Below, piece after piece: positions 2,789-25,342 of a stretch of DNA of 58,063 nt; position 1 is the first letter of the stretch; each line of letters begins with the position of its first letter. The notes beneath the pieces were generated by a model. That model was not told where the DNA came from and did no database searches. It worked only from the letters and a program-made list of their open reading frames with translations. The DNA comes from Gemmatimonadota bacterium. GTDB lineage: Bacteria > Gemmatimonadota > Gemmatimonadetes > Gemmatimonadales > Gemmatimonadaceae. The position numbers were made by a program, and so were the translations under genes. Where the stretch lies: assembly GCA_028287285.1 (NCBI GenBank), contig JAQBPY010000142.1, positions 1-58,063 on the forward strand, read 5' to 3'.

Positions 2789-4678
2789 TTACGCGGCGTA
2801 GGCGGCGGAGGTGATGCGATCAACCGCGGTCGATCGAGCCTTGCCCCAGGTGATGTACCGCTCGACCTTGATGCCGACGAGATTTGCCTGCCAGAGCGAC
2901 GTCATCACGGCGGCGGCATCGGTCGGATCGGTCGGCGCCGAATCCAACTGCAATGACGCTTCGCGACTGATGTCGATCTCGACGCCGCCCTCGTCCGCGA
3001 GCAGGATCGAGGGGGCGTGCGCGAAGATGATCTGCGCGCCGACCGTCTCGGACGTGACAACCGGAATTCCGAGGATGGAGCCGCCGGCGATGCTGAGGCC
3101 AGGGAAGGCCGGCTGCCCAACCGAGTTGATCATCGTGCCGAGTGCGAACGCCTGCGATTCCGACATGAGAATCACGAGCCCATCGAGCCCGTACATCGCG
3201 ACCGCGAACGCCGTGACACGCGCGGAGATGTCCGACCGAGCGTCTGCGACGTCGGTGCCGGAAGCGGCCGTTCCCGTGACGCCGTTGGTGATCGACGCGG
3301 GATTGACATTCGCGACCGCAGCGATGGTCGAGTCGACGAACTGGCCGTCGAGGAACTGCACGATCCCCTTCACCATCTCGTCACGCACGGCTGTTTCTGC
3401 CGATGGCGTGGAGAGCCTCACCAGCTCCTCGGTGAGCACGATGATGCCGGCTGCCTTCGCGAAGCCGAGCGTCACGGACGCATACTGCGCGTTGGTCACA
3501 GGCTTCATTTTGCCCTGTCCGACCCACTTGTACGTGCCGCCGGCGGTCTGTGCCGGCATCGATACGTTGAACGGAACGCGGCGAAGTTTCGGAATGCGTC
3601 CGACCAGCGTGAGCGGACGAAGCAGCTCGAGGAACTCGTTTGCGTAGTTCGTGGTAACGAGTGGTGCCGCGAAGGTGGCCTGCGCCGTGGTGCCTGGTGC
3701 GACCGCCGTGCGGCTCATCAGCCCTTCGCGCAGACCGACTAGAACTTCGTTCGCCTGATCGCCCCACGTGCGCTTGGCGTACTCCGCGGCCTCGTACCTG
3801 TTGCCCTTGGAGACGGCAAGCGCCATGACGTGGCGCGCGAATCCGATACCCGGCTCTGTGTTGGAGCGGACGGTGACGATCGGCACGCCACTCCGCGACT
3901 GCGAGGCGGCGGTCGACGTGGCCGCGACGACGGGCGTGGCACGCGACTCGTTGTCGCGCCTGGCGCTCGCGAGACGCGAGAGATGCGCATCGGTGCTGCG
4001 GATCTCGTTGTCCAGTGTGTCGAACGTCTCGGCTTCACTCGCATCGAGCGTGCGGCCTTCGGCGGCAGAGCGCTCAAGCATGGCATCGCGCTGTGCGACC
4101 TTCGCGGCACGACTGTTCTCGTGCTGCGTGATCTGTTCCTGTATGGTCATGTGACGTCTCGGGGTAGGTGAGGTGCCCGTGACGCCGGGTCTTGGATGGG
4201 TTGGGGACTCGCCTAACGCGGCGAGTTGTGCCTGCGAGGTGGAGCGCACCAGGTCGATGGTGGCGCCGGGGGTGGAGGGGATCGTGACCAGAGACAACTC
4301 GCGCCAGTCCCACTCGACGAAGCGGTTCCCACTCGTCGTGAGCGGGAGGAAGCCGACGGACAGCCCGCGCACGAGCCCGTGCTTGACGTTCTGCCAAGCG
4401 CGGTCGAGGGTGTCCTTGACCGGGCCAGCCTCATCGATCTTGCGAATCTGGGCGCGGATGCGGATGCGGGCGTTCTCAATCGTGACCGAGAGAACGTTGC
4501 CGACCGGAGATCCGACGTCGTGCTGCCACAGGAGCGGCATGGGCAATTCATACTTCGCCCCACGCGGCTCTAAGACGGTGCCGTAAGTGTCGACGGCATC
4601 CGTGGACGCGACGCCTTCGATGATGCGAGCAGCATCATCGACCGCTCGAAACTGCAACACGGTAAAGGCTCTGTCCAA
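2789..4678 (-). CDS. Fused prohead protease and HK97-fold major capsid protein
   Basis: A 629-residue fusion. Residues 1-~150 are an S78 prohead protease: VLQFRAVDDAARIIEGVAST opening, His53 in LLWQHDVGSPVG, Ser107 in GLVRGLSVGF, and an acidic residue near 127 in WDWRELSLVTIP. From about 177 (MTIQEQITQHENS) comes a coiled-coil delta-type scaffold region, then the HK97 capsid fold from about 290 (GFARHVMALAVSKG, TTNYANEFLELLRPLTLVGRI, GGTYKWVGQGKMKPVTNAQY, the LDGLVILMSESQAFAL block and the LVGIKVERYITWGKAR end). The start is TTG at 4678 with AGGG seven bases upstream. Met177 (4150) could act as an internal start giving free capsid precursor. In most relatives the two proteins are separate genes. 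Confidence 0.93.
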   Translation of the reverse strand: MDRAFTVLQFRAVDDAARIIEGVASTDAVDTYGTVLEPRGAKYELPMPLLWQHDVGSPVGNVLSVTIENARIRIRAQIRKIDEAGPVKDTLDRAWQNVKHGLVRGLSVGFLPLTTSGNRFVEWDWRELSLVTIPSTPGATIDLVRSTSQAQLAALGESPTHPRPGVTGTSPTPRRHMTIQEQITQHENSRAAKVAQRDAMLERSAAEGRTLDASEAETFDTLDNEIRSTDAHLSRLASARRDNESRATPVVAATSTAASQSRSGVPIVTVRSNTEPGIGFARHVMALAVSKGNRYEAAEYAKRTWGDQANEVLVGLREGLMSRTAVAPGTTAQATFAAPLVTTNYANEFLELLRPLTLVGRIPKLRRVPFNVSMPAQTAGGTYKWVGQGKMKPVTNAQYASVTLGFAKAAGIIVLTEELVRLSTPSAETAVRDEMVKGIVQFLDGQFVDSTIAAVANVNPASITNGVTGTAASGTDVADARSDISARVTAFAVAMYGLDGLVILMSESQAFALGTMINSVGQPAFPGLSIAGGSILGIPVVTSETVGAQIIFAHAPSILLADEGGVEIDISREASLQLDSAPTDPTDAAAVMTSLWQANLVGIKVERYITWGKARSTAVDRITSAAYAA

Positions 4679-4748
4679 TCCGCATCCCTGAAAGGGTACG
4701 GATGGAGTATTGCAGGCTCTGCGGGTTCAGTCGCGTCCCCAAAAGTGA

Positions 4749-4952
4749 CTACGCCGCGCCGTCCACGTTCAGGAAGAACAGGCGGTGACGACGCGGCGTC
4801 TCGCCGGGGACCTTTGCGGCGATGCGCTCGATGTAGGTGCGGACCGTGTGCACGGAGATGCCCAATTCGTGGGCGATGGCCTTGTCGGGCTGGCCCTGCT
4901 TTACGCGCTGGAGAATTTCCGCTTGACGCCTCGAGAGTTCGGGGCGCGTCAT
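4749..4952 (-). CDS. Stand-alone LuxR/GerE-type HTH protein, 67 aa
   Basis: Residues 5-50 match the LuxR C-terminal DNA-binding domain: LSRRQAEILQRVKQGQPDKA, then AHELGISVHTVRTYIERI, with the characteristic turn and recognition helix. There is no receiver or ligand domain, so it is a minimal DNA-binding protein. Its ATG overlaps the previous stop, and it lies between terL and the capsid gene. A transcriptional regulator in the middle of a head-gene operon is unusual; it may tune late transcription, which is inference. Confidence 0.8.
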   Translation of the reverse strand: MTRPELSRRQAEILQRVKQGQPDKAIAHELGISVHTVRTYIERIAAKVPGETPRRHRLFFLNVDGAA

Positions 4953-5152
4953 TGATAACCCTCGCTGGCGAGGCCATACTTCGCATCATGGAAAGCGTCG
5001 ATAAGATTGAGCCTGCCGAGCCTACCGAGAATGAGCGCGAGGACGACGAAGCGGCCGCAGCGTCCGAAGAGTCGGACAACCAGCAGGCTGCTTGGGAGCT
5101 CAGCGAAGAAGGTAGAGCTGTCCTGCGTGACGATGGCCTTGCGTAGCATCAT
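4949..5152 (-). CDS. Small hydrophobic phage protein, 67 aa
   Basis: The ATG at 5152 overlaps the terL stop by one base (TGATG), and the stop overlaps the LuxR-type gene. A central hydrophobic stretch (RFVVLALILGRLGRLNLI) could be one membrane helix, flanked by a polar N-terminus (AIVTQDSSTFFAEL). No family recognised. A membrane peptide near the head genes might relate to lysis, but nothing shows this. Confidence 0.45.
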   Translation of the reverse strand: MMLRKAIVTQDSSTFFAELPSSLLVVRLFGRCGRFVVLALILGRLGRLNLIDAFHDAKYGLASEGYQ

Positions 5153-10439: not shown

Positions 10440-10982
10440 TCATGCCGCGAGGGGGCGAATGGTGAGCTCAGCCCGGGGTGCGTCGACATCCACGCCGGCC
10501 CGGTACCAGCGGGTGTCGTACAGCCACGCGTCTTTCGTGTAGACCACCGTCTCCAGGGCGTCGTGGGTTGCCTTGGCGAAATTGCACACGTCGTGAATGC
10601 GATGGTCCGGCACCCAGACCGCCCCCACGATACCGAGCGGGATGGCGGCGGGGGTTGGGGCGGGGAATCCAAGCGTCTGTTTTGCGCGGTCGCGGATCAG
10701 CCCCTTCGCCCGGGCGTACGGCGCACTGAGTGTGAGCGCGGGCGTACCATGGCGCAGGATGGGTATTTGGCGGGTGTTGTCGCTCGCGAGGTGGCTCCAG
10801 GGCAAGAGGATGCGGACCGGCCACTGGATACCGGGGGCCTCCTCGAGCGTCGGGGTTGGGGGAGCTTTCACGCGGGGTGAGGTGCCCTCGATGATCTGCT
10901 CGGCTTTCCGTCTGGCCGTGGTCTCGTCAAGGCCGTACTGAGACCGAAGGCCAGCCGTGATCTGATCAAGAGTGAGGGTCAT
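10440..10982 (-). CDS. rusA: RusA-type Holliday junction resolvase
   Basis: A 180-residue protein. Residues 1-60 are an extra N-terminal segment (LTLDQITAGLRSQYGLDETT) containing a small helical region. The RusA core follows: ILLPWSHLASDNTRQIPIL, a first strand pair, then the catalytic block HDVCNFAKATHDALETVVYT, carrying the conserved Asp, Asn, Lys and Asp pattern of RusA, then KDAWLYDTRWYRAG and a closing PRAELTIRPL strand. RusA dimers cut four-way junctions, letting phages resolve branched DNA before packaging. ATG at 10982 overlaps the cysH-like stop, so the resolvase is translationally linked to the CRISPR module upstream. Confidence 0.88.
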   Translation of the reverse strand: MTLTLDQITAGLRSQYGLDETTARRKAEQIIEGTSPRVKAPPTPTLEEAPGIQWPVRILLPWSHLASDNTRQIPILRHGTPALTLSAPYARAKGLIRDRAKQTLGFPAPTPAAIPLGIVGAVWVPDHRIHDVCNFAKATHDALETVVYTKDAWLYDTRWYRAGVDVDAPRAELTIRPLAA

Positions 10983-11779
10983 ATCGCCGCTTCCGAAGAA
11001 TGCGCGCGCGCACTCGCGTGGATGCGGCACGCCGCATCGTAGAGCGGAGCGACGTCAGGATAGTGCCGTCCGAGCCAGTCCCGGTATCCGCGACCGTCCG
11101 ACAACTCGCGCGGGTACCATGTCCCGTCGCGGAGATATTCAAGCGGCGGGGCGAGTTCGAGCTTGGTGTAGACGGGGTTCAGCGGGATTTGGTCCTTTGC
11201 GAGCAGGAATCCCACGACCTCGTCTGCCGTCCAGTGAATGAGTGGGGTGCATATCCGCATCCCGTCCGCGCGGCGATAGCACGCTCCGCGCACGCGATAG
11301 TTCGCTCGCCGTCCGACGCTCTCGGTGGCTCGCACCCCGAGTGCGAGTCCATCGACCCCGTCCTCACGCATCTGCGCCTCCATCGTCCTGACCTTTAGCA
11401 TCGCGGGGTAGCGAGTACGCCCGGCGAGTACGGACTCGACGTCCCACGGATACGGCACGGCGCGCCATTCCGAGGAGACGGCGCGTGCGAGCAGGCCCAC
11501 GTACGCGAGCCGATCCGGGAGCGGGTTCGGCGGATCGGCGCGATAGATCGGAATGCCTCCATCGACGGCGAGCGTCACGAGCAGGAGCGCCGAACTATCC
11601 TTGCCGCCGCCACACGCCACCGCTGGCCGAGTAACGACGGCCCGCCACGCCGCGACGGTCCGGAGTGCAAAATCAAATTTCCGGCGAAACGCCGCCGTGC
11701 GCGAGAGTGCGGCGAGCGATCTTACGCGCGACATGGCGGTCTCGGTGTGCGCGGCACGCATCTGGGCGAGCGAGGGCAT
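10979..11779 (-). CDS. cysH: CysH-like PP-loop protein of the type IV-B CRISPR module
   Basis: The sequence RPAVACGGGKDSSALLLVTL is a PP-loop of the PAPS reductase/CysH superfamily, followed by GIPIYRADPPNPLPDRLAYV and, later, ALGVRATESVGRRANY and CTPLIHWTADEVVGFLLAKD, which are typical of CysH-like phage and CRISPR-associated proteins. The usual first Ser of SGGKDS is Gly here. The start is uncertain: ATG 11779 (266 aa) or ATG 11734 (251 aa), both inside the end of csf3. CysH-like genes are the defining companion of type IV-B loci. Known family members act on adenylated sulfur compounds or modify nucleotides, but the role with Csf proteins is not established. Confidence 0.85.
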   Translation of the reverse strand: MPSLAQMRAAHTETAMSRVRSLAALSRTAAFRRKFDFALRTVAAWRAVVTRPAVACGGGKDSSALLLVTLAVDGGIPIYRADPPNPLPDRLAYVGLLARAVSSEWRAVPYPWDVESVLAGRTRYPAMLKVRTMEAQMREDGVDGLALGVRATESVGRRANYRVRGACYRRADGMRICTPLIHWTADEVVGFLLAKDQIPLNPVYTKLELAPPLEYLRDGTWYPRELSDGRGYRDWLGRHYPDVAPLYDAACRIHASARAHSSEAAI

Positions 11780-12464
11780 GGAGAAGTGGGAAGAGGGAGG
11801 GATTGAGCGCGCAACGCGTCCCTGCGCGAACGATGGCGTCGGTCGTGCGCGCAGGATGCCAGTACGGGGGCCTGAGCGGGCCGGTCTCAGTGGAGTCTGC
11901 CCACTCGACCCAGCTCGCGGGGATGTGGCGCTGCGCCACGTCGGTGAGCGTGAGAACCGCCGCCGCGTCGGCGTCCTCGGGGAGATAGGCCGCCTCCCAT
12001 GTCGCGACGACCCCGTAGCCAGCACTCCGCCAGCCACCGAGATGCGTCAGTCGCCGGGCGAGCCGGAGCAGCGGACGTCGATCTCCAATGGCTAGCCACG
12101 ACACCGTTGGTGTAATGATCGTCGGGAGGCGATGCATGCGGTTTTTGCCGGGGCCAAGGCCAAGGTGGATCGACCGGCTCAGCGCCGCGATATCCTCCCC
12201 ATCCCGACGCTTAACGGTATGATCACTGGACAGGCGTGCGTCGTCCGCAAACGTCGCTACCGTCGCCAGAGCCACCGTCACGCCGCGAAAGGTTGCACTG
12301 GCAATCGGGAGCGGAGGCGTGACCAGGTCCCCGAGTGGTGTGCTCCGGTCGATGGGCGCGATGCGACAGTTCGGATGCGCCGACGCAAGGAGGCCGTCGA
12401 GGTGCAGGTCGTCGGTGATCACAATAGGCGCGGCCATCGTGGCCGTCAGTCGAATGACGCCCAC
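11673..12464 (-). CDS. csf3: Type IV CRISPR Cas5-type subunit Csf3
   Basis: A RAMP-fold protein that in type IV complexes caps the 5' end of the guide RNA. Family features: first strand and helix VIRLTATMAAPIVITDDLHLDG, the PIASATFRG strand, GLGPGKNRMHRLP, the glycine loop LGGWRSAGYGVVATWE, and PLRPPYWHPA near the C-terminus, a strong Csf3 signature. I chose GTG 12464 because the first RAMP strand (VGVIRLTAT) lies before the ATG at 12437. The last ~35 residues overlap the start of cysH. The gene begins 4 bases after csf2 ends. Confidence 0.85.
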   Translation of the reverse strand: MGVIRLTATMAAPIVITDDLHLDGLLASAHPNCRIAPIDRSTPLGDLVTPPLPIASATFRGVTVALATVATFADDARLSSDHTVKRRDGEDIAALSRSIHLGLGPGKNRMHRLPTIITPTVSWLAIGDRRPLLRLARRLTHLGGWRSAGYGVVATWEAAYLPEDADAAAVLTLTDVAQRHIPASWVEWADSTETGPLRPPYWHPARTTDAIVRAGTRCALNPSLFPLLHALARPDACRAHRDRHVARKIARRTLAHGGVSPEI

Positions 12465-12468
12465 CGCC

Positions 12469-13320
12469 TTACGCCATGCTTGCGGCAAGCGCGATGAGTG
12501 TCTCTCGCGCCGACTTGACAATCGTCGCATCCGACAACCATGCGTCGTATCCCTCGCTCGGACACTCATGCTGCACTTGTACCCGGCCAAATCCTGAGCC
12601 GGACTTGCCGCCCAGCGAGACGAGTTCATTCAGCGCGTAACCGAGCACGCCGACTTCGACGGGCGGCAGCGACTTCAGCGCGATCAGCGAGCCTTGCAGC
12701 ACCACGCCCGGGACCAGTGCCTCGATGGTCACCGGCATCGGCGTCACACCGCTCAGTGCGGGATTCTGCTGATCACGATCAATGTGCCGGACCTGGGAAA
12801 TCTCTGCGACCAGTTCCTCGGCGTCGTGCAGCGGCGCGCCTGGCTGCGCCGTGCACAATCCGGCGGCGACCGTTTCGGTGCACACGGGCCACAGCCACCC
12901 CACCGATACACGACCCGGCATCATATAGCTGTACAACGCCGCCCCGAAGACGCTCAGGGCTGGGATGGCGTGGCGCAACGCCCGTTGCGTAACCGGGTCC
13001 GTCTTGGTCTCTGCCTGCGTCAGATGGCCCCCATTGGCTAACGCGCCATACAGCCGATCCCACGCGATTGGCGGAACCTCAGCTGCCCCGACATGCAGCC
13101 CGCACCGCGTAAAGAGATCCCGCATCACGATCCGACGGAGCGCACCGCGAAGGGCGTTGCCGCTGACGGCAGGGACGCCGGGTGAGGCTGGAGACGCCGC
13201 GAGCGGGACGCGACGAAATAGCACGGCGTTTCCGGTATCGCCGCCGAAGGCACCGTGGTGGAGCGGCGCTTCGAGTGTCATTGTGATCGGATAGCGACTG
13301 GCATTCATTCGAGCACTCAT
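12469..13320 (-). CDS. csf2: Type IV CRISPR Cas7-type backbone subunit Csf2
   Basis: A 283-residue Cas7-like protein, which polymerises along the guide RNA. It shows YPITMTLEAPLHHGAFGGDT, then GNAVLFRRVPL, the PGVPAVSGNALRGALRRIVM block, and a C-terminal glycine-rich loop LGGKSGSGFGRVQV; these are hallmark Csf2 positions. The ATG at 13320 has a good ribosome site (AAGGA, 8 bases upstream) and the 42-bp gap from csf1 is one of the few in the operon, consistent with this abundant subunit being translated independently at high level. Confidence 0.9.
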   Translation of the reverse strand: MSARMNASRYPITMTLEAPLHHGAFGGDTGNAVLFRRVPLAASPASPGVPAVSGNALRGALRRIVMRDLFTRCGLHVGAAEVPPIAWDRLYGALANGGHLTQAETKTDPVTQRALRHAIPALSVFGAALYSYMMPGRVSVGWLWPVCTETVAAGLCTAQPGAPLHDAEELVAEISQVRHIDRDQQNPALSGVTPMPVTIEALVPGVVLQGSLIALKSLPPVEVGVLGYALNELVSLGGKSGSGFGRVQVQHECPSEGYDAWLSDATIVKSARETLIALAASMA

Positions 13321-13362
13321 GGGAATCGTCCTTGGTTGTTGGTTGGTCAGGGGCGGTGCGGA

Positions 13363-14430
13363 CTACGCGGCGTTGGGGCGAGCGAGTTTTGCGGCTTGCT
13401 GCTGGTCGTAGGCGAGCGCCACGAGCAGTTGCGTCCGTTCCCGGAGCGTCATCATGATGTTCGTCGCGTCAGCGTCATCTGTTTCGCGAACGAATTCGAC
13501 GACAGACAGCGCTCCGCTGCTGTGTGGCGCAACGCTCAAATCCGCGAGCATTCGGGCGACAAACACCGGGAGCACGCGGCCCGCGTGGCGCTGCACGCGG
13601 CGGGCAAAGACGCCTGCCCAGAACTCCTTTCCGTGCGTGCTGCGGTACCCACTGTCTTTGGCGAGCCGCACGAGGAGGTCGGCAGCACGCGCATCGGTCG
13701 GGTCAATCATTGATTGGAATGTCTCGGAGAAGGGGGAAAGGACGCGCGGATCATCCGTCGGGGCATGCGCCACGAGAAGATCGAGCACGGGATCGCCGCG
13801 CCGTGGCGCGATGATTGCTTCGCAAGCCGTCCACGCGGACGCGCCGCGTGCAATCGCCGCCGGGCGATACCGGCCAGAGAGAATGTCATCCCGCGCGCAC
13901 CAGCCGAAACCCTTAGCGTCGACTGTGCGGAGCGTGGCGACAGCGAGCGACAGCGGCGCGTCGCGCGATGGAATGAACGTGATCGTCCCCTGATCGCTGC
14001 CGATGCGAAGGTGCGTAGGCGTGCACGGCTCGGCGTACAGGATGTGATGCCGCTGCTTTGATGTCGCCCACGACAGGATTGAGAGTCCCTGCGGGGGATC
14101 AACAAGCAGGCCCCACACGTCGGCGTAGTCGAGGACCAGGAGCGCGCCTTCCACTACAGCAAGTGACCGAGTCCGCGGCGGCGGCGGCACGTCTCCCGGG
14201 CGACCTCCGAGCAGTCGTGCGCAACCAGTGCAGAGATCGGGGGCGGTCGGAGCCTCGCACGCCGCCCAGTCGCTGAATCCAATACCGAGCGCCTTCTTGC
14301 GAGGGCCGGCGCCATCGAAAGGAGAATCTCCGCAGACGCAACACGAGCAGCCTGCGCCAAGCCGCACGCCGAGGGCGGTCGCAAGAATCTCCCTGGCACG
14401 AGAGCGTGGCGTTCGTTCGGTTGTGGTCAT
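13363..14430 (-). CDS. csf1: Type IV CRISPR large subunit Csf1, possibly fused to Cas11
   Basis: The N-terminal ~100 residues hold a four-cysteine zinc finger (CCVCGDS and LCTGCARLLGG) around KALGIGFSDWAAC, as in Csf1. Next comes the PPQGLSILSWATSKQRHHIL block, matching the Csf1 'PP...K-H' region. At 355 residues it is much longer than most Csf1 proteins (about 200-250). The extra C-terminal ~130 residues are helical (ARAADLLVRLAKDSGY, FWAGVFARRVQRHAGRVLPV, MMTLRERTQLLVALAYDQQQ), like the small subunit Cas11, which has no separate gene here. The ATG at 14430 overlaps the preceding stop. It would recognise or stabilise the 5' side of the ribonucleoprotein. Confidence 0.85.
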   Translation of the reverse strand: MTTTERTPRSRAREILATALGVRLGAGCSCCVCGDSPFDGAGPRKKALGIGFSDWAACEAPTAPDLCTGCARLLGGRPGDVPPPPRTRSLAVVEGALLVLDYADVWGLLVDPPQGLSILSWATSKQRHHILYAEPCTPTHLRIGSDQGTITFIPSRDAPLSLAVATLRTVDAKGFGWCARDDILSGRYRPAAIARGASAWTACEAIIAPRRGDPVLDLLVAHAPTDDPRVLSPFSETFQSMIDPTDARAADLLVRLAKDSGYRSTHGKEFWAGVFARRVQRHAGRVLPVFVARMLADLSVAPHSSGALSVVEFVRETDDADATNIMMTLRERTQLLVALAYDQQQAAKLARPNAA

Positions 14431-21074: not shown

Positions 21075-21319
21075 GCAGCCGCCTGGGTTGGATATTTCTC
21101 GGCCAGCCACTGCGTGAACGTGGGGAAGCCCGCCGCTGCGCCAGCGAGTTGCGCGGGGAGCGCCATGCGGCGACGGAATCCCCCGAGCTCACCGCTGTAC
21201 GAGGCGGTGGCATCAGCGGCCAGTTGCTTGAACTCGTCCACGTGCTCGCAGATCCAGACATCGCCTGCGTGTTCCATCGCGATGGCGTAGAACTCGGCGT
21301 CCTGCTCGTAGGTGGTCAT
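21071..21319 (-). CDS. Small phage protein downstream of helicase, 82 aa
   Basis: ATG at 21319 overlaps the helicase stop (ATGA). Sequence opens MTTYEQDAEFYAIAMEHAGD and ends FTQWLAEKYPTQAAA; largely helical and acidic. Its coupling to the helicase hints at a replication accessory role, but no motif shows it. Confidence 0.58.
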   Translation of the reverse strand: MTTYEQDAEFYAIAMEHAGDVWICEHVDEFKQLAADATASYSGELGGFRRRMALPAQLAGAAAGFPTFTQWLAEKYPTQAAA

Positions 21320-22341
21320 CCCATTTTCCTCGGGTAGCGTCCTGCTGTTGCCCACTGGTCGCGCTCCTCGAGGGGCAGGACGCGCCCATGCCGTACCGCG
21401 AGCAGGGCCTTGGCGCCCTCCCGTGAGCCGTAGTTGCGAAGCTTCATGGCAGACACGCCCATCGTGTTTGGCTCAAGCATCGCCGACACATCCCCCGTAC
21501 CGGCGCGCGCTGCGCGAACGGCCTGCTGGTACTCCTCGTCCGATTCGTCGTAGAGCTTGCCGCGCATTGGTCGAAAGAGCCCGATCATTCCAGTGGCGTT
21601 GCGCTGCTTGAGCGAGCCGAACGCCACGTGGTCCACTTTCGGCGGCAGGAACTTCGCGAGATAATCCCCTTTGCTCGCGGACATGTTGAGCTGCGACGTG
21701 AATACCAGGAGCAGGTCATTGTCCTGCGCCATGCGCAATGCGCCGTCGTTGACGTGCTTGGCGGCGTCGTAGAGGGTCTTTTTCTCGTCGCCCTCGATGT
21801 GGTCGATGTGATCCACGATCACCACGTCTGCCTTGAACGCCTTCGCTTCCTTGAGGCCGGTTTCGAGGCCGCGCATGTTGATGGCGCGAGCGCCGCTCAC
21901 CATGACTCGCTCCACGAATGGCGAACGACCCTGAGAGAGCAGTTCGGCCTTCAGCAGCTCGCGCTGCGCGCCGCCGTCCGGAAGCGTGCGCAACTGGCCG
22001 GAGAGCGCATCGCCGGGGTGCACGCCGGTCGCCATGCACGCGAGATAGGTGCGGAATTCATGCGGACGCGTCTCCAGCGCCATCACGTAGACCCGCTTGC
22101 CCTGCAACTGCCAGAGATCAACGATGCTGGAGACGAACGTCGTCTTGCCGCCGCCGGATGTCGCGCAGACAAACCAGATGTTGCCCGGGGCCATGGGTCC
22201 AGTAAGGGCATCCAGCTTGGGGAATGGCCACCGCACGAAAATGTCAGGATGGCGGTCGAGCATCGCCATGGCATCGCAGATTTGATCCGACGCCAGGACG
22301 GTCGGATGAATCGCCGGGAGTTCCTCGTCGCCGTGTGTCAT
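21316..22341 (-). CDS. dnaB: DnaB-like replicative helicase (RecA-fold ATPase)
   Basis: A 341-residue RecA-fold helicase. Walker A is ATSGGGKTTFVSS (about residue 60), the strand RVYVMALETRPHEFRTYLAC holds the DnaB-type catalytic Glu region, Walker B is ADVVIVDHIDHI, and LLLVFTSQLNMSA matches the sensor strand with Gln. The N-terminal DnaB domain is absent, so this is a short phage form comparable to gp4-type helicases without a primase. It unwinds phage DNA at the fork. ATG at 22341 overlaps the stop of the replication initiator gene. Confidence 0.85.
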   Translation of the reverse strand: MTHGDEELPAIHPTVLASDQICDAMAMLDRHPDIFVRWPFPKLDALTGPMAPGNIWFVCATSGGGKTTFVSSIVDLWQLQGKRVYVMALETRPHEFRTYLACMATGVHPGDALSGQLRTLPDGGAQRELLKAELLSQGRSPFVERVMVSGARAINMRGLETGLKEAKAFKADVVIVDHIDHIEGDEKKTLYDAAKHVNDGALRMAQDNDLLLVFTSQLNMSASKGDYLAKFLPPKVDHVAFGSLKQRNATGMIGLFRPMRGKLYDESDEEYQQAVRAARAGTGDVSAMLEPNTMGVSAMKLRNYGSREGAKALLAVRHGRVLPLEERDQWATAGRYPRKMG

Positions 22342-23350: not shown

Positions 23351-23379
23351 ATTATAACATAGTGTTGAATCGTTGTAAA
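23351..23379 (-). promoter_or_regulatory. Near-consensus early promoter (PL-like)
   Basis: On the minus strand: -35 TTTACA (23379-23374), a 17-bp spacer, then -10 TATAAT (23356-23351). Predicted transcription starts near 23344 and reads into the 65-aa gene, replication genes and on through the CRISPR module. It is the best sigma-70-like promoter in the phage part. Confidence 0.8.
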
Positions 23380-23407: not shown

Positions 23408-23632
23408 ATGAACGTTCGGTGGGATGTGAAGGCGCGGGCGATCGAGAAGGGCTGGGTGAATGCCCACCAGCTCGCCGCGCGCGCGGGGATCAGCTACCCC
23501 GTCGCCAAACGCATCTGGGACGAGGAGGAGATGCCGGACCGCATCGACTTCGACACGCTCGGCAAACTCGCCAAGACGTTTGGGTGCAAGCGCAACCCGT
23601 GGAAGCTGCTCAAGATCGTTTCGCACGACTAA
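23408..23632 (+). CDS. XRE/Cro-type repressor, 74 aa
   Basis: A single-domain helix-turn-helix protein: VKARAIEKGWVNAHQLAARA, then GISYPVAKRIWDEEEMPDRI, then FDTLGKLAKTFGCKRNPWKLL, matching the Cro/CI family. No dimerisation or self-cleavage domain follows, so it is not an SOS-cleavable CI. It is the only plus-strand phage gene, divergent from the early promoter and convergent with the genes ending at 23641. Most likely it maintains lysogeny by repressing the early promoter, possibly with autoregulation through the operators between 23359 and 23398. Confidence 0.85.
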   Translation: MNVRWDVKARAIEKGWVNAHQLAARAGISYPVAKRIWDEEEMPDRIDFDTLGKLAKTFGCKRNPWKLLKIVSHD

Positions 23633-23640
23633 GCGCCTAC

Positions 23641-23922
23641 TCACGACTCCACCTCCACCACCAGCACCACGGCCCGGCCTCGCGCGGTGTTCCGGCGCAC
23701 CGCACGGAGGGTGAATCGCTGTGCCCCGAGCCGGAGATAGGCGGTGCGGCTGTCGTCCTGCCGGAACGCGTACCCACCCGCGCCCACCATCGAGAGCGAC
23801 GCGAGGGGTGCCATGGGCGGCTCGTCCTGGGTCGCGCGGTAGGCGCGCTCGAGTCCAATGAGTCGGGCGGCGTGCTCGTCTCTGAGGCGCTGGATGATGG
23901 CCTCGTGGTCAGAGCGCTTCAT
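23641..23922 (-). CDS. Small phage protein, 93 aa
   Basis: ATG at 23922 overlaps the preceding stop. N-terminal helix (MKRSDHEAIIQRLRDEHAAR) then beta-rich part (GAGGYAFRQDDSRTAYLRLG, RAVVLVVEVES). Last gene of the right-hand unit, ending 8 bases from the convergent repressor gene; antisense interference is possible. No family recognised. Confidence 0.6.
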   Translation of the reverse strand: MKRSDHEAIIQRLRDEHAARLIGLERAYRATQDEPPMAPLASLSMVGAGGYAFRQDDSRTAYLRLGAQRFTLRAVRRNTARGRAVVLVVEVES

Positions 23923-24845
23923 GCGTCCACCGGTTTCGAAGCGTCGGGGCGTGCGCTCTCGGGTAGTCCGTAGCGACCGCCGTAGATGTTTAGCAGAGAG
24001 GCGGCGCGCTGCATGGCTTCCGTCCAGTCGTATTTGCATCCCATCGCTTTCAGGATGGTTGGAAAGCTCGGGATTAGGGGCGTGCGAGTTGCCTTGCGCG
24101 CCTGTCGCTGATTCGGGAGGCATTCGTGGACGTCGTAGTACGCCGACAATGCCTCAAGAACCATGTCGCGCGTTATCTCCTTACGACTGTGGCCGCGCTT
24201 GTATTGGTCAAGCCCGAAGCGGGCTTTCGCGGCGTTCCACGTTCCATAAACCGCAATGACCTGCCCCGCGAACCCCTCGCCAATCAATGATCGCGCTTCG
24301 GACACTGTTGGCGAACGACCGATTTGGTTTTGCAGGTCAATGAGCGCGTGACGCATCTGGGCTTCGCAGCGATTGGTGAGATTGCGAAGTCCCGCAGACT
24401 TATACACAATCTTCTTTGTCTGCTCCGCGCGGACGCGCACGTCGCGCTTGTGCGCCGCGCCAGCGTTGGTTGCACGAGCGCGGGCGAGAATGGCCAGCCC
24501 GTCCCCCCTTCGCGCGGCAAATTCAGCGATCTTCGCCTGTCGATACGACTGACTCGCGAGCGGCGTCGAGCGAGGGATCTCCATCATGTCGCGCACGCCG
24601 TTCGCACCGCCAACGTCCGCGTGCACGGTCGTGATGTGCGACGACAGCATGTGCCGATAGACGCCGCAACCCCGCACCGGACACCGCAGCCCCTTCTCGG
24701 TGTCCTCAAACAGCGCGCCGAGGCCGATTGTTAAAGTCGGGTCGATGACGTCCTGAACGGTCAACGGAATATCCGTCATCGGCGGTAGCGCGCCGTTGTT
24801 CATCGCCTGCTTGAGGCGGACGAGAGAGGTGTACAGCTCGCTCAT
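23919..24845 (-). CDS. Zinc-finger protein with HNH-associated repeats
   Basis: A 308-residue protein starting at ATG 24845 (overlaps previous stop). Around residues 45-75 lies CPVRGCGVYRHMLSSHITTV with a following His, a MucR/Ros-like zinc finger. A central helical region (RNLTNRCEAQMRHALIDLQN) leads to two homing-endonuclease-associated repeat motifs: GRSPTVSEARSLIGEGF with VYGTWNAAKARFGL, and CLPNQRQARKATRTPL with FPTILKAMGCKYDW. These repeats are DNA-binding modules usually attached to HNH nucleases; no nuclease domain is present here. Probably a sequence-specific DNA-binding protein. Confidence 0.75.
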   Translation of the reverse strand: MSELYTSLVRLKQAMNNGALPPMTDIPLTVQDVIDPTLTIGLGALFEDTEKGLRCPVRGCGVYRHMLSSHITTVHADVGGANGVRDMMEIPRSTPLASQSYRQAKIAEFAARRGDGLAILARARATNAGAAHKRDVRVRAEQTKKIVYKSAGLRNLTNRCEAQMRHALIDLQNQIGRSPTVSEARSLIGEGFAGQVIAVYGTWNAAKARFGLDQYKRGHSRKEITRDMVLEALSAYYDVHECLPNQRQARKATRTPLIPSFPTILKAMGCKYDWTEAMQRAASLLNIYGGRYGLPESARPDASKPVDA

Positions 24846-25342
24846 GGCTCGATCCCTCGGCGTGCACACTCAGCCAGCCACCGGGCCTGCACTAACGCAC
24901 AGCGCGCGATCAATGCCTCCCGGAGAGCCAGTTCATCGAACGGGTTTAACCATCGGTCGAAGCGGCGGTGTGCCTCGGCACTCAGCGGGACGATCTGGTC
25001 GTAGTTCGCCTTCATGCGCGCGGCCTTGCCTTCGTCCCCGACGTGCGCGTTCTGGCTCGGACGCTCCTCGGTGGGAATCGTGCCGTATGCCTCGCAGGGC
25101 TGCGCCTTCATCCACTCGACGCGTGCCACACTCCCGTAGGTGCGCTCGAATTCGCGTGACCGCCGCTCGGCGTTGCGCTTCTTGACGGGTGTGCGGGGTG
25201 GCGGGCCGCTTGCGAGTAGCTCCGTCGCTTTCTTCTTGGAGACGCGGGGAATGCGTGCCGTTGGGGGTGGCAACGGCTTTGGGGCTTTCTTCTCGCGCGG
25301 TGCGGGAAGTGGGGCAGGGCAAAAGGATTCTTCGAGGTTCAT
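24842..25342 (-). CDS. HNH-like phage protein (DUF968/Ref type)
   Basis: A 166-residue protein. The N-terminal half is Lys/Pro-rich and disordered. From ~70 the pattern REFERTYGSVARVEWMKAQP, CEAYGTI, QNAHVGDEGKAARM, YDQIVPLSAEAHRRFD follows phage HNH-like proteins, in which CxxC, HV and HxxxH normally bind metal. Here the CxxC pair is reduced to one Cys, so metal binding is doubtful. Its relatives are involved in phage recombination. ATG at 25342 overlaps the frame-corrected stop of the methyltransferase. Confidence 0.7.
   Translation of the reverse strand: MNLEESFCPAPLPAPREKKAPKPLPPPTARIPRVSKKKATELLASGPPPRTPVKKRNAERRSREFERTYGSVARVEWMKAQPCEAYGTIPTEERPSQNAHVGDEGKAARMKANYDQIVPLSAEAHRRFDRWLNPFDELALREALIARCALVQARWLAECARRGIEP

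Follow-up and report, generated by a model that had tools for sequence, protein, structure and literature searches.

What might a CRISPR-Cas effector do in a phage in which no source of guides is visible? This question is raised by four genes on the minus strand (positions 10979-14430) of a 58,063-nucleotide stretch, hereafter the window, from a Gemmatimonadota bacterium of the Gemmatimonadaceae (assembly GCA_028287285.1, contig JAQBPY010000142.1). An original prediction, made from the DNA alone, described them as a type IV-B module of csf1, csf2, csf3 and a gene for a CysH-like PP-loop protein, lying in a phage early operon between a replicative (DnaB-like) helicase gene and rusA. All four genes were found at these coordinates, profile searches assigned all four proteins to type IV Csf and CysH families and not to unrelated ones, and both the phage location and the type IV-B identity were supported. 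The prediction was right but incomplete, as it overlooked a Cas11-like domain at the C-terminus of Csf1, and its interpretation was partly supported. Our results revealed that this C-terminus is homologous to Cas11 and that the fusion occurs in all eight phage loci found, namely the window and seven further viruses obtained from viral-contig scans (L001, L002, L007, L012, L014, L081 and L082). We consider it fairly probable that these loci encode a phage-lineage IV-B effector made of the Csf1-Cas11 fusion and additional free Cas11, which would form a filament without CRISPR RNAs (crRNAs), act together with a CysH partner and serve in conflict.

A Cas11-like domain at the end of Csf1

13363..14430, minus strand: csf1::cas11 fusion gene, 355 aa, with a Csf1 domain at about residues 1-230, a low-confidence linker and a Cas11-like domain at residues 241-352

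The first part of the window protein matched the PADLOC family typeIV_Cas8 (Csf1_0_IV, 3.3e-11) over residues 28-226 and the NCBIfam family cas8u_csf1 (1.9e-5), and the cysteines of its expected Cys4 zinc finger (C30, C33, C67 and C70) were invariant across 8 homologues. Its AlphaFold2 model had two domains (mean predicted local distance difference test score, pLDDT, 86.9; predicted template modelling score, pTM, 0.60), with pLDDT below 50 only at residues 1-3, in the linker (231-240) and at residues 353-355. Foldseek returned the IV-A Csf1 chains 8rc3_G (E 2.3e-4) and 7xg1_A (E 2.8e-4) on top, with a probability of 1.0 and a target-normalised TM score of 0.48. The C-terminal third (last 115 residues, hereafter the C-domain), modelled alone, gave seven helices with a pLDDT of 94.1 and a pTM of 0.86.

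Phage Csf1 proteins were 333-376 residues long with csf2 directly after, and coverage by the PADLOC model Csf1_0_IV ended at residue 215-226 in 8/8. As comparators we used 13 plasmid loci (L083-L095; nine actinobacterial and four archaeal), in which the 11 Csf1 candidates (none was picked in L086 and L091) had 214-241 residues and a separate open reading frame (ORF) of 131-153 residues stood directly before csf2 in 13/13. This ORF was taken as cas11 because of its position and the Cas11 layout in the literature. A profile of the eight phage C-domains aligned to the 13 Cas11 candidates in hhalign with a probability of 94.5 (E 8.2e-8), whereas the control alignment to the comparator Csf1 gave a probability of 0.1 (E 0.49). 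Along the phage Csf1 alignment, the comparator Csf1 profile (11 sequences) took columns 21-216 (E 7.5e-13) and the comparator Cas11 profile (13 sequences) took columns 253-336 (E 2.7e-6). In all eight phage Csf1, the best domain hit of a hidden Markov model (HMM) built from the 13 ORFs fell within the C-terminal portion, at E values from 1.1e-6 to 1.5 in the tiny space of an eight-sequence search, and in the reverse search the nine actinobacterial Cas11 ORFs ranked above every Csf1. When PADLOC was run on the eight C-domains, Cas11_0_IV matched 3/8 (best 6.2e-5), Cas11_1_IV 1/8 (3.8e-6) and the IV-A small-subunit model 1/8 (6.3e-4); the sole other family was a control protein in 1/8 (0.029).

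However, several results weigh against this homology. The C-domain of the window itself matched no PADLOC family and reached a domain E of 0.009 with the Cas11 HMM in the eight-sequence search. With whole proteins, the PADLOC Cas11 models matched only in L081 and L082. In the reverse HMM search, L083 and L087 had Cas11 candidates that did not come out above Csf1, and a first hhalign comparison, with four divergent Cas11 sequences, gave a weak result (probability 3.9, E 0.011). Foldseek of the C-domain gave no PDB match at E 0.001 or better, and its 27 rows did not include the IV-B Cas11; this result neither supports nor refutes the homology. PDB sequence searches with the Csf1 profile, the C-domain profile and the L082 domain returned no meaningful relative. 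We rejected the idea that the fusion arose from an assembly chimera, since the seven further viruses, from seven different metagenome numbers, carry it as well.

A start codon at the domain boundary

13363..13710, minus strand: nested cas11 reading frame of 115 aa that opens at an internal ATG (residue 241) and shares the stop of csf1; seven helices predicted
13711..13740, minus strand: linker codons immediately upstream of this ATG, without a 4-nt Shine-Dalgarno core in the window copy

The fusion gene may also give a free Cas11. A start codon lay at the domain boundary, after a variable linker, in 8/8 phage loci (seven ATG, one TTG). A Shine-Dalgarno core (4 nt, at -15 to -4) preceded it in 6/8, compared with 12.7% on average in the background (P 8e-5); the nested frame is thus probably translated into free Cas11. 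RNA around the internal start was less structured than the remaining gene (combined P 1e-4). The solved IV-B complex, as described in passages of PMC7937560, holds six Csf2 and five Cas11, and one fused copy per Csf1 would thus supply too little Cas11.

These signals have to be read with a number of points against them. The count of eight start codons depends on three loci that were placed by hand, and the automatic alignment puts the boundary Met in a shared column in 5/8 rows only. The start of L082 is one codon off, that of L002 follows a 10-residue insertion, and L081 has Leu (TTG), which is not telling because TTG accounts for 7/42 Leu codons in its csf1. Neither the window nor L014 has the Shine-Dalgarno core. 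Synonymous recoding gave 4.2/8 expected cores given the amino acids (P 0.03) and fully explained the weak RNA structure by amino-acid content (P 0.61), while in the duplex-energy test (combined P 0.002) only L081 and L082 stood out. Two loci without a core, and a linker whose amino-acid content explains much of the initiation signal, would suit a plain fusion, in which the Cas11 domain exists only within Csf1, one per Csf1, and no separate product is made. However, a plain fusion does not account for a start codon at the boundary of every locus, nor does it agree with the five Cas11 of the published complex, and we regard it as rather unlikely. Internal initiation yielding free Cas11 is a likely, though unproven, reading of these sequences.

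Csf2, Csf3 and the CysH-like protein

12469..13320, minus strand: csf2 (Cas7), 283 aa, PADLOC typeIV_Cas7 (Csf2_0_IV) 1.2e-36
11673..12464, minus strand: csf3 (Cas5), 263 aa, PADLOC typeIV_Cas5 (Csf3_0_IV) 1.1e-29, GTG start inferred by alignment
10979..11779, minus strand: cysH-like PP-loop gene, 266 aa, start inferred, Pfam PAPS_reduct (PF01507) 2e-9

Csf2 and Csf3 were identified by sequence profiles. In addition to the PADLOC matches, Csf2 matched NCBIfam cas7_csf2 (4.8e-8) and Csf3 matched NCBIfam csf3 (9.7e-7), and the motifs from which they had been named were present (SGNALRGALRR in Csf2; PLRPPYW and LGGWRSAGYG in Csf3). The NCBIfam scores for csf1, csf2 and csf3 were 24-33 bits, far under the curated cut-offs of 130-140, indicating that the Csf proteins are divergent members of their families. 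A profile of the eight phage Csf2 found the solved IV-B Csf2 7jhy_e as its best PDB match (7.8e-18), next the Cas7c 11fs (3.2e-17), and the IV-A Csf2 8rc3 only at E 0.44. PHROGs families of unknown function matched Csf2 (phrog_22746, 9.3e-17) and Csf3 (phrog_34599, 6.2e-5); related viral proteins are therefore already catalogued, unnamed. On the Thermococcus nautili plasmid (L083, 4827-5570), the gene after csf2 is recorded as Cas6; it has the csf3 position and a PPYW motif, and looks like Csf3.

The call of a CysH-like PP-loop protein was borne out by the Pfam match. The residues G59 K60 D61 S62 of the PP-loop and R150, E153 and S154 (R..ES) were invariant in 13 aligned rows. No Cys was invariant, in agreement with a review passage stating that the catalytic Cys is missing from IV-B CysH (PMC8175902). 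A PDB sequence search with the window protein returned no meaningful relative. A PP-loop gene followed csf3 in 7/7 phage loci reaching that far, and in two of them a divergent PP-loop protein replaces the usual CysH beside the csf core (L007, read in L073 at 13313-14176; L082 at 4352-5131). These two have 20% identity to the window protein and a SWGKDS loop, and are still PAPS_reduct members. In the comparator plasmid loci, an annotated CysH was visible in some stretches, not all. The csf3 and cysH-like genes overlap by 107 nt in the window (11673-11779). The overlap measures 38 nt in L082 and, with inferred starts, about 77-131 nt in L001, L002, L012 and L014; in L073 a 17-nt gap separates them by the frame used.

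The locus thus has a csf2 of the type IV branch with csf1 and csf3 adjoining and, as in IV-B, a CysH-like gene with no array of three or more repeats, cas6 or dinG found. No separate cas11 gene was found at the window locus, PADLOC gave no match on ten neighbouring window ORFs, and in 8/8 phage loci the domain is fused to Csf1. Because of this fusion we read the locus as a IV-B variant. The prediction had taken csf1-3 with cysH, and the lack of cas6, dinG and arrays, as the defining set of IV-B; the set is present, but that definition leaves out cas11, which passages of PMC8175902 and PMC7937560 give as a regular IV-B component. Subtype IV-A was rejected, as no dinG, cas6 or array was found and Csf2 is far from its IV-A counterpart; type III was rejected because Csm3-type matches were far weaker, and chance ORFs were rejected by the profiles and by the eight homologous loci.

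Guide sources and proposed mechanism

Arrays were scanned as exact 16-mers 40-110 nt apart in the window and in eight records from the seven further viruses (13.8 of 38 kb for L082). No run of three or more repeats was found there. Six isolated pairs of 17-21 nt were seen (four in the L014 contig, one in L082 and one in the window), and a two-repeat mini-array is therefore compatible with the scan. PF13307 (DinG) and PF10040 (Cas6) matched in 0/7 viral records, PF10040 being a weak test for Cas6, since it matched only 4/14 controls. The host genome (6.1 Mb, 441 contigs, 84% complete, 3.8% contaminated) was taken as a metagenome-assembled genome (MAG). It had one PF13307 match, on another contig (C7), and no match to Cas1 or Cas6 (PF10040); a search for a 16S gene in it also gave none. 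Cas1 was present in 14/148 genomes of the host family, including 1/9 other same-genus genomes listed.

The absence of cas6, dinG and arrays claimed by the original prediction thus agreed with our searches, whereas its proposal of a guide-loaded complex attacking rival plasmids, phages or host RNAs lost ground: no guide source was visible in the phage sequences or the host MAG, and guides are still possible. One such possibility is that the complex loads host-made crRNAs and represses rival phages or plasmids. Guide borrowing has been proposed for array-less type IV in passages of PMC8175902 and PMC7937560, and the one Cas1-positive genome of the host genus would allow it; however, the lack of Cas1 and Cas6 matches in the host MAG and the rarity of Cas1 in the family make it improbable. 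We give a slightly better, still low, chance to a filament that would act as a counter-defence by sequestering small guide RNAs of the host, whether crRNAs or other kinds. This hypothesis is raised in the same review (PMC8175902), and the RNA bound by the IV-B complex in the published study was heterogeneous (PMC7937560). However, few genomes of the host family carry CRISPR adaptation genes, and a guide sponge leaves the CysH-like gene unexplained, though such a gene follows csf3 in every phage locus that extends so far. With no Cas1 or Cas6 in the MAG, rare Cas1 in the family and no array, neither borrowing nor sponging of crRNAs has an obvious use in this host group, an argument that is not decisive because the MAG is incomplete.

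We propose instead that a single gene would give the Csf1 large subunit fused to a Cas11 domain, and that initiation at the internal start codon would add free Cas11, with Csf2 and Csf3 completing a Csf ribonucleoprotein. This ribonucleoprotein may assemble, as a filament, on RNAs other than crRNAs. The CysH-like protein would work with the complex and probably use ATP to modify a nucleic acid or small molecule. The likely benefit would lie in conflicts of the phage with its host or with rivals, either at an early stage of infection or in lysogeny. We extrapolate the RNA filament, the CysH chemistry and the role in conflict from what has been published on the IV-B complex and from reviews; the Mycobacterium IV-B complex contained heterogeneous RNA of ~55-60 nt in which crRNAs were not enriched (PMC7937560). 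More tentatively, at a little under an even chance in our judgment, the loci could represent a phage clade whose nested small subunit arose independently of that in type I, the four genes giving a five-protein, RNA-coating filament that would serve as a crRNA-free weapon or shield with the PP-loop enzyme as its effector.

Related phage loci and distribution

The order csf1, csf2, csf3, PP-loop gene was kept in 7/8 loci including the window, the L081 contig ending inside csf3. Csf2 of the phage loci had 41-60% identity to that of the window, and in the Csf2 tree the eight phage proteins stood apart from the 13 plasmid ones with support of 100/99. The placement of the module differed: it lies before rusA in the window, next to an integrase gene in L001, one gene from an integrase gene in L014, between the portal and head protease genes in L002, and after the large terminase gene in L081. 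L010 and L012, IMG/VR contigs with different metagenome numbers, are 99.9% identical over 13.5 kb and were counted once, as one virus. In L081, QueD-like and radical-SAM genes (3180-4267), the latter presumably QueE-like, lie upstream of the terminase gene and csf1, suggesting a 7-deazaguanine-type modification.

The pattern GVTPMPVT gave nine stretches in viral contigs, of which L008, L009 and L011 had no Csf2 match. A pattern scan of genome contigs yielded 46 stretches, and the Csf2 HMM matched none of them. Among 395 genomes of the host phylum, each scored on its five or six top candidates, a Csf2 match at E<=0.001 was found in two, the window's own and G095, and Csf1 in the window's own genome only. 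The G095 match (L006; E 8e-4, 37 residues) was judged a chance one, with no csf1, csf3 or cysH match in 2.4 kb. Two Csf2 queries, run at E 1e-5 and 1e-3, drew no match among the INPHARED phages, and the plasmid search gave five distant records for each of two phage Csf2 queries. A search of the phylum around the L016 genome (Nonomuraea) gave 0/396 at E 1e-5 and is uninformative, as the set held no positive genome. Such rarity, with a clear Csf2 only in the window's own genome among those of its phylum, is what a decaying or chance cassette without function would lead one to expect. However, open frames and invariant residues have been kept over the eight phage loci in spite of their divergence in Csf2, and we consider this explanation highly improbable.

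Prophage setting

10440..10982, minus strand: rusA-like resolvase gene, PF05866 at 23.2 bits (cut-off 22.8), PHROG RusA-like 1.5e-5
21316..22341, minus strand: DnaB-like helicase gene, upstream and in the same direction, phrog_19 4.3e-23, PF03796
22338..23126, minus strand: DnaD-like helicase loader gene, phrog_2514 6.4e-11
23351..23379, minus strand: candidate early promoter TTTACA-17-TATAAT, sigma-70-like, 11/12 consensus match
23408..23632, plus strand: Cro/C1-type helix-turn-helix (HTH) gene, divergent candidate repressor, PF13443 1.1e-6

The window from position 1 to ~28 kb is a prophage cut by the contig edge, with genes for portal, major head protein/protease, terminase subunits, HNH, helicase, helicase loader, methyltransferase and processivity factor; beyond ~28 kb it was read, from its ORFs, as bacterial chromosome. 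The module lies in a run of mostly minus-strand ORFs from the helicase gene to rusA, whose ATG overlaps the cysH stop by 4 nt. The repressible promoter proposed for this run may exist: the sigma-70-like site lies beside a divergent HTH gene and is the only minus-strand one between 24 and 10.4 kb. However, it is unproven, and the scan found 3 sites against 1.9 (standard deviation 1.5) in shuffles, which is not above chance. One terminator-like site, also at chance level, lies between the promoter-like site and the module (22188, minus strand). A protein encoded at 23919-24869 had a weak match, below cut-off, to a homing-endonuclease-associated repeat (PF18780).

Comparison with known systems

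Small subunits encoded within a large-subunit gene are familiar from type I, where Cas11 of type I-C also comes from internal translation of cas8. In type I-B the small subunit lies in frame at the 3' end of cas8 and starts at an internal Met, as predicted here, and I-D is also named for internally translated Cas11 (passages of PMC11899642). Type I uses crRNAs, whereas the present type IV loci have no array or nuclease that we found. In Cas7-11 of III-E and III-I, according to passages of PMC12669027 and PMC11127173, Cas11 is likewise a fused domain, but it is joined with Cas7 domains and not with the large subunit. Among plasmid IV-B systems (JS623 and actinobacterial plasmids), csf1-3 and a CysH-like gene occur, with no cas6, dinG or array found, and the PDB entry closest to the window Csf2 is their 7jhy Csf2. 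The window belongs, however, to a phage-borne clade with cas11 in csf1, unlike the separate ORF of all comparator plasmids. Fuxiviridae IV-B of Bathyarchaeia viruses is also virus-encoded, has CysH adjoining csf3 and has no adaptation module; it differs in its archaeal virus host, its two-repeat mini-array and its Cas11 and Csf1, treated as separate proteins in passages of PMC10848311, whereas the system described here belongs to bacterial (pro)phages and has fused subunits. A csf1-csf3 fusion is among the known type IV variants (PMC8175902).

We found no report in the literature of a Csf1-Cas11 fusion or a nested cas11 in type IV, which earlier surveys may nevertheless describe; passages of PMC12669027, PMC11127173, PMC11519345 and PMC8175902 contain neither. 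The original view that such modules are little described applies in this respect. It does not apply to their genetic setting, as type IV on plasmids is already in print, and so are type IV systems of prophages, of lytic phages and of one family of archaeal viruses (passages of PMC10848311 and PMC11656645).

Few CRISPR subtypes are as poorly understood as IV-B, which has no guide and no nuclease. The compact four-gene phage operon offers a natural minimal IV-B system, in which subunit stoichiometry could be tested at one codon. It suggests that fusion of the large and small subunits happened in type IV, as nesting did in type I, and because the operon is carried by phages, infection assays could reveal the function of IV-B.

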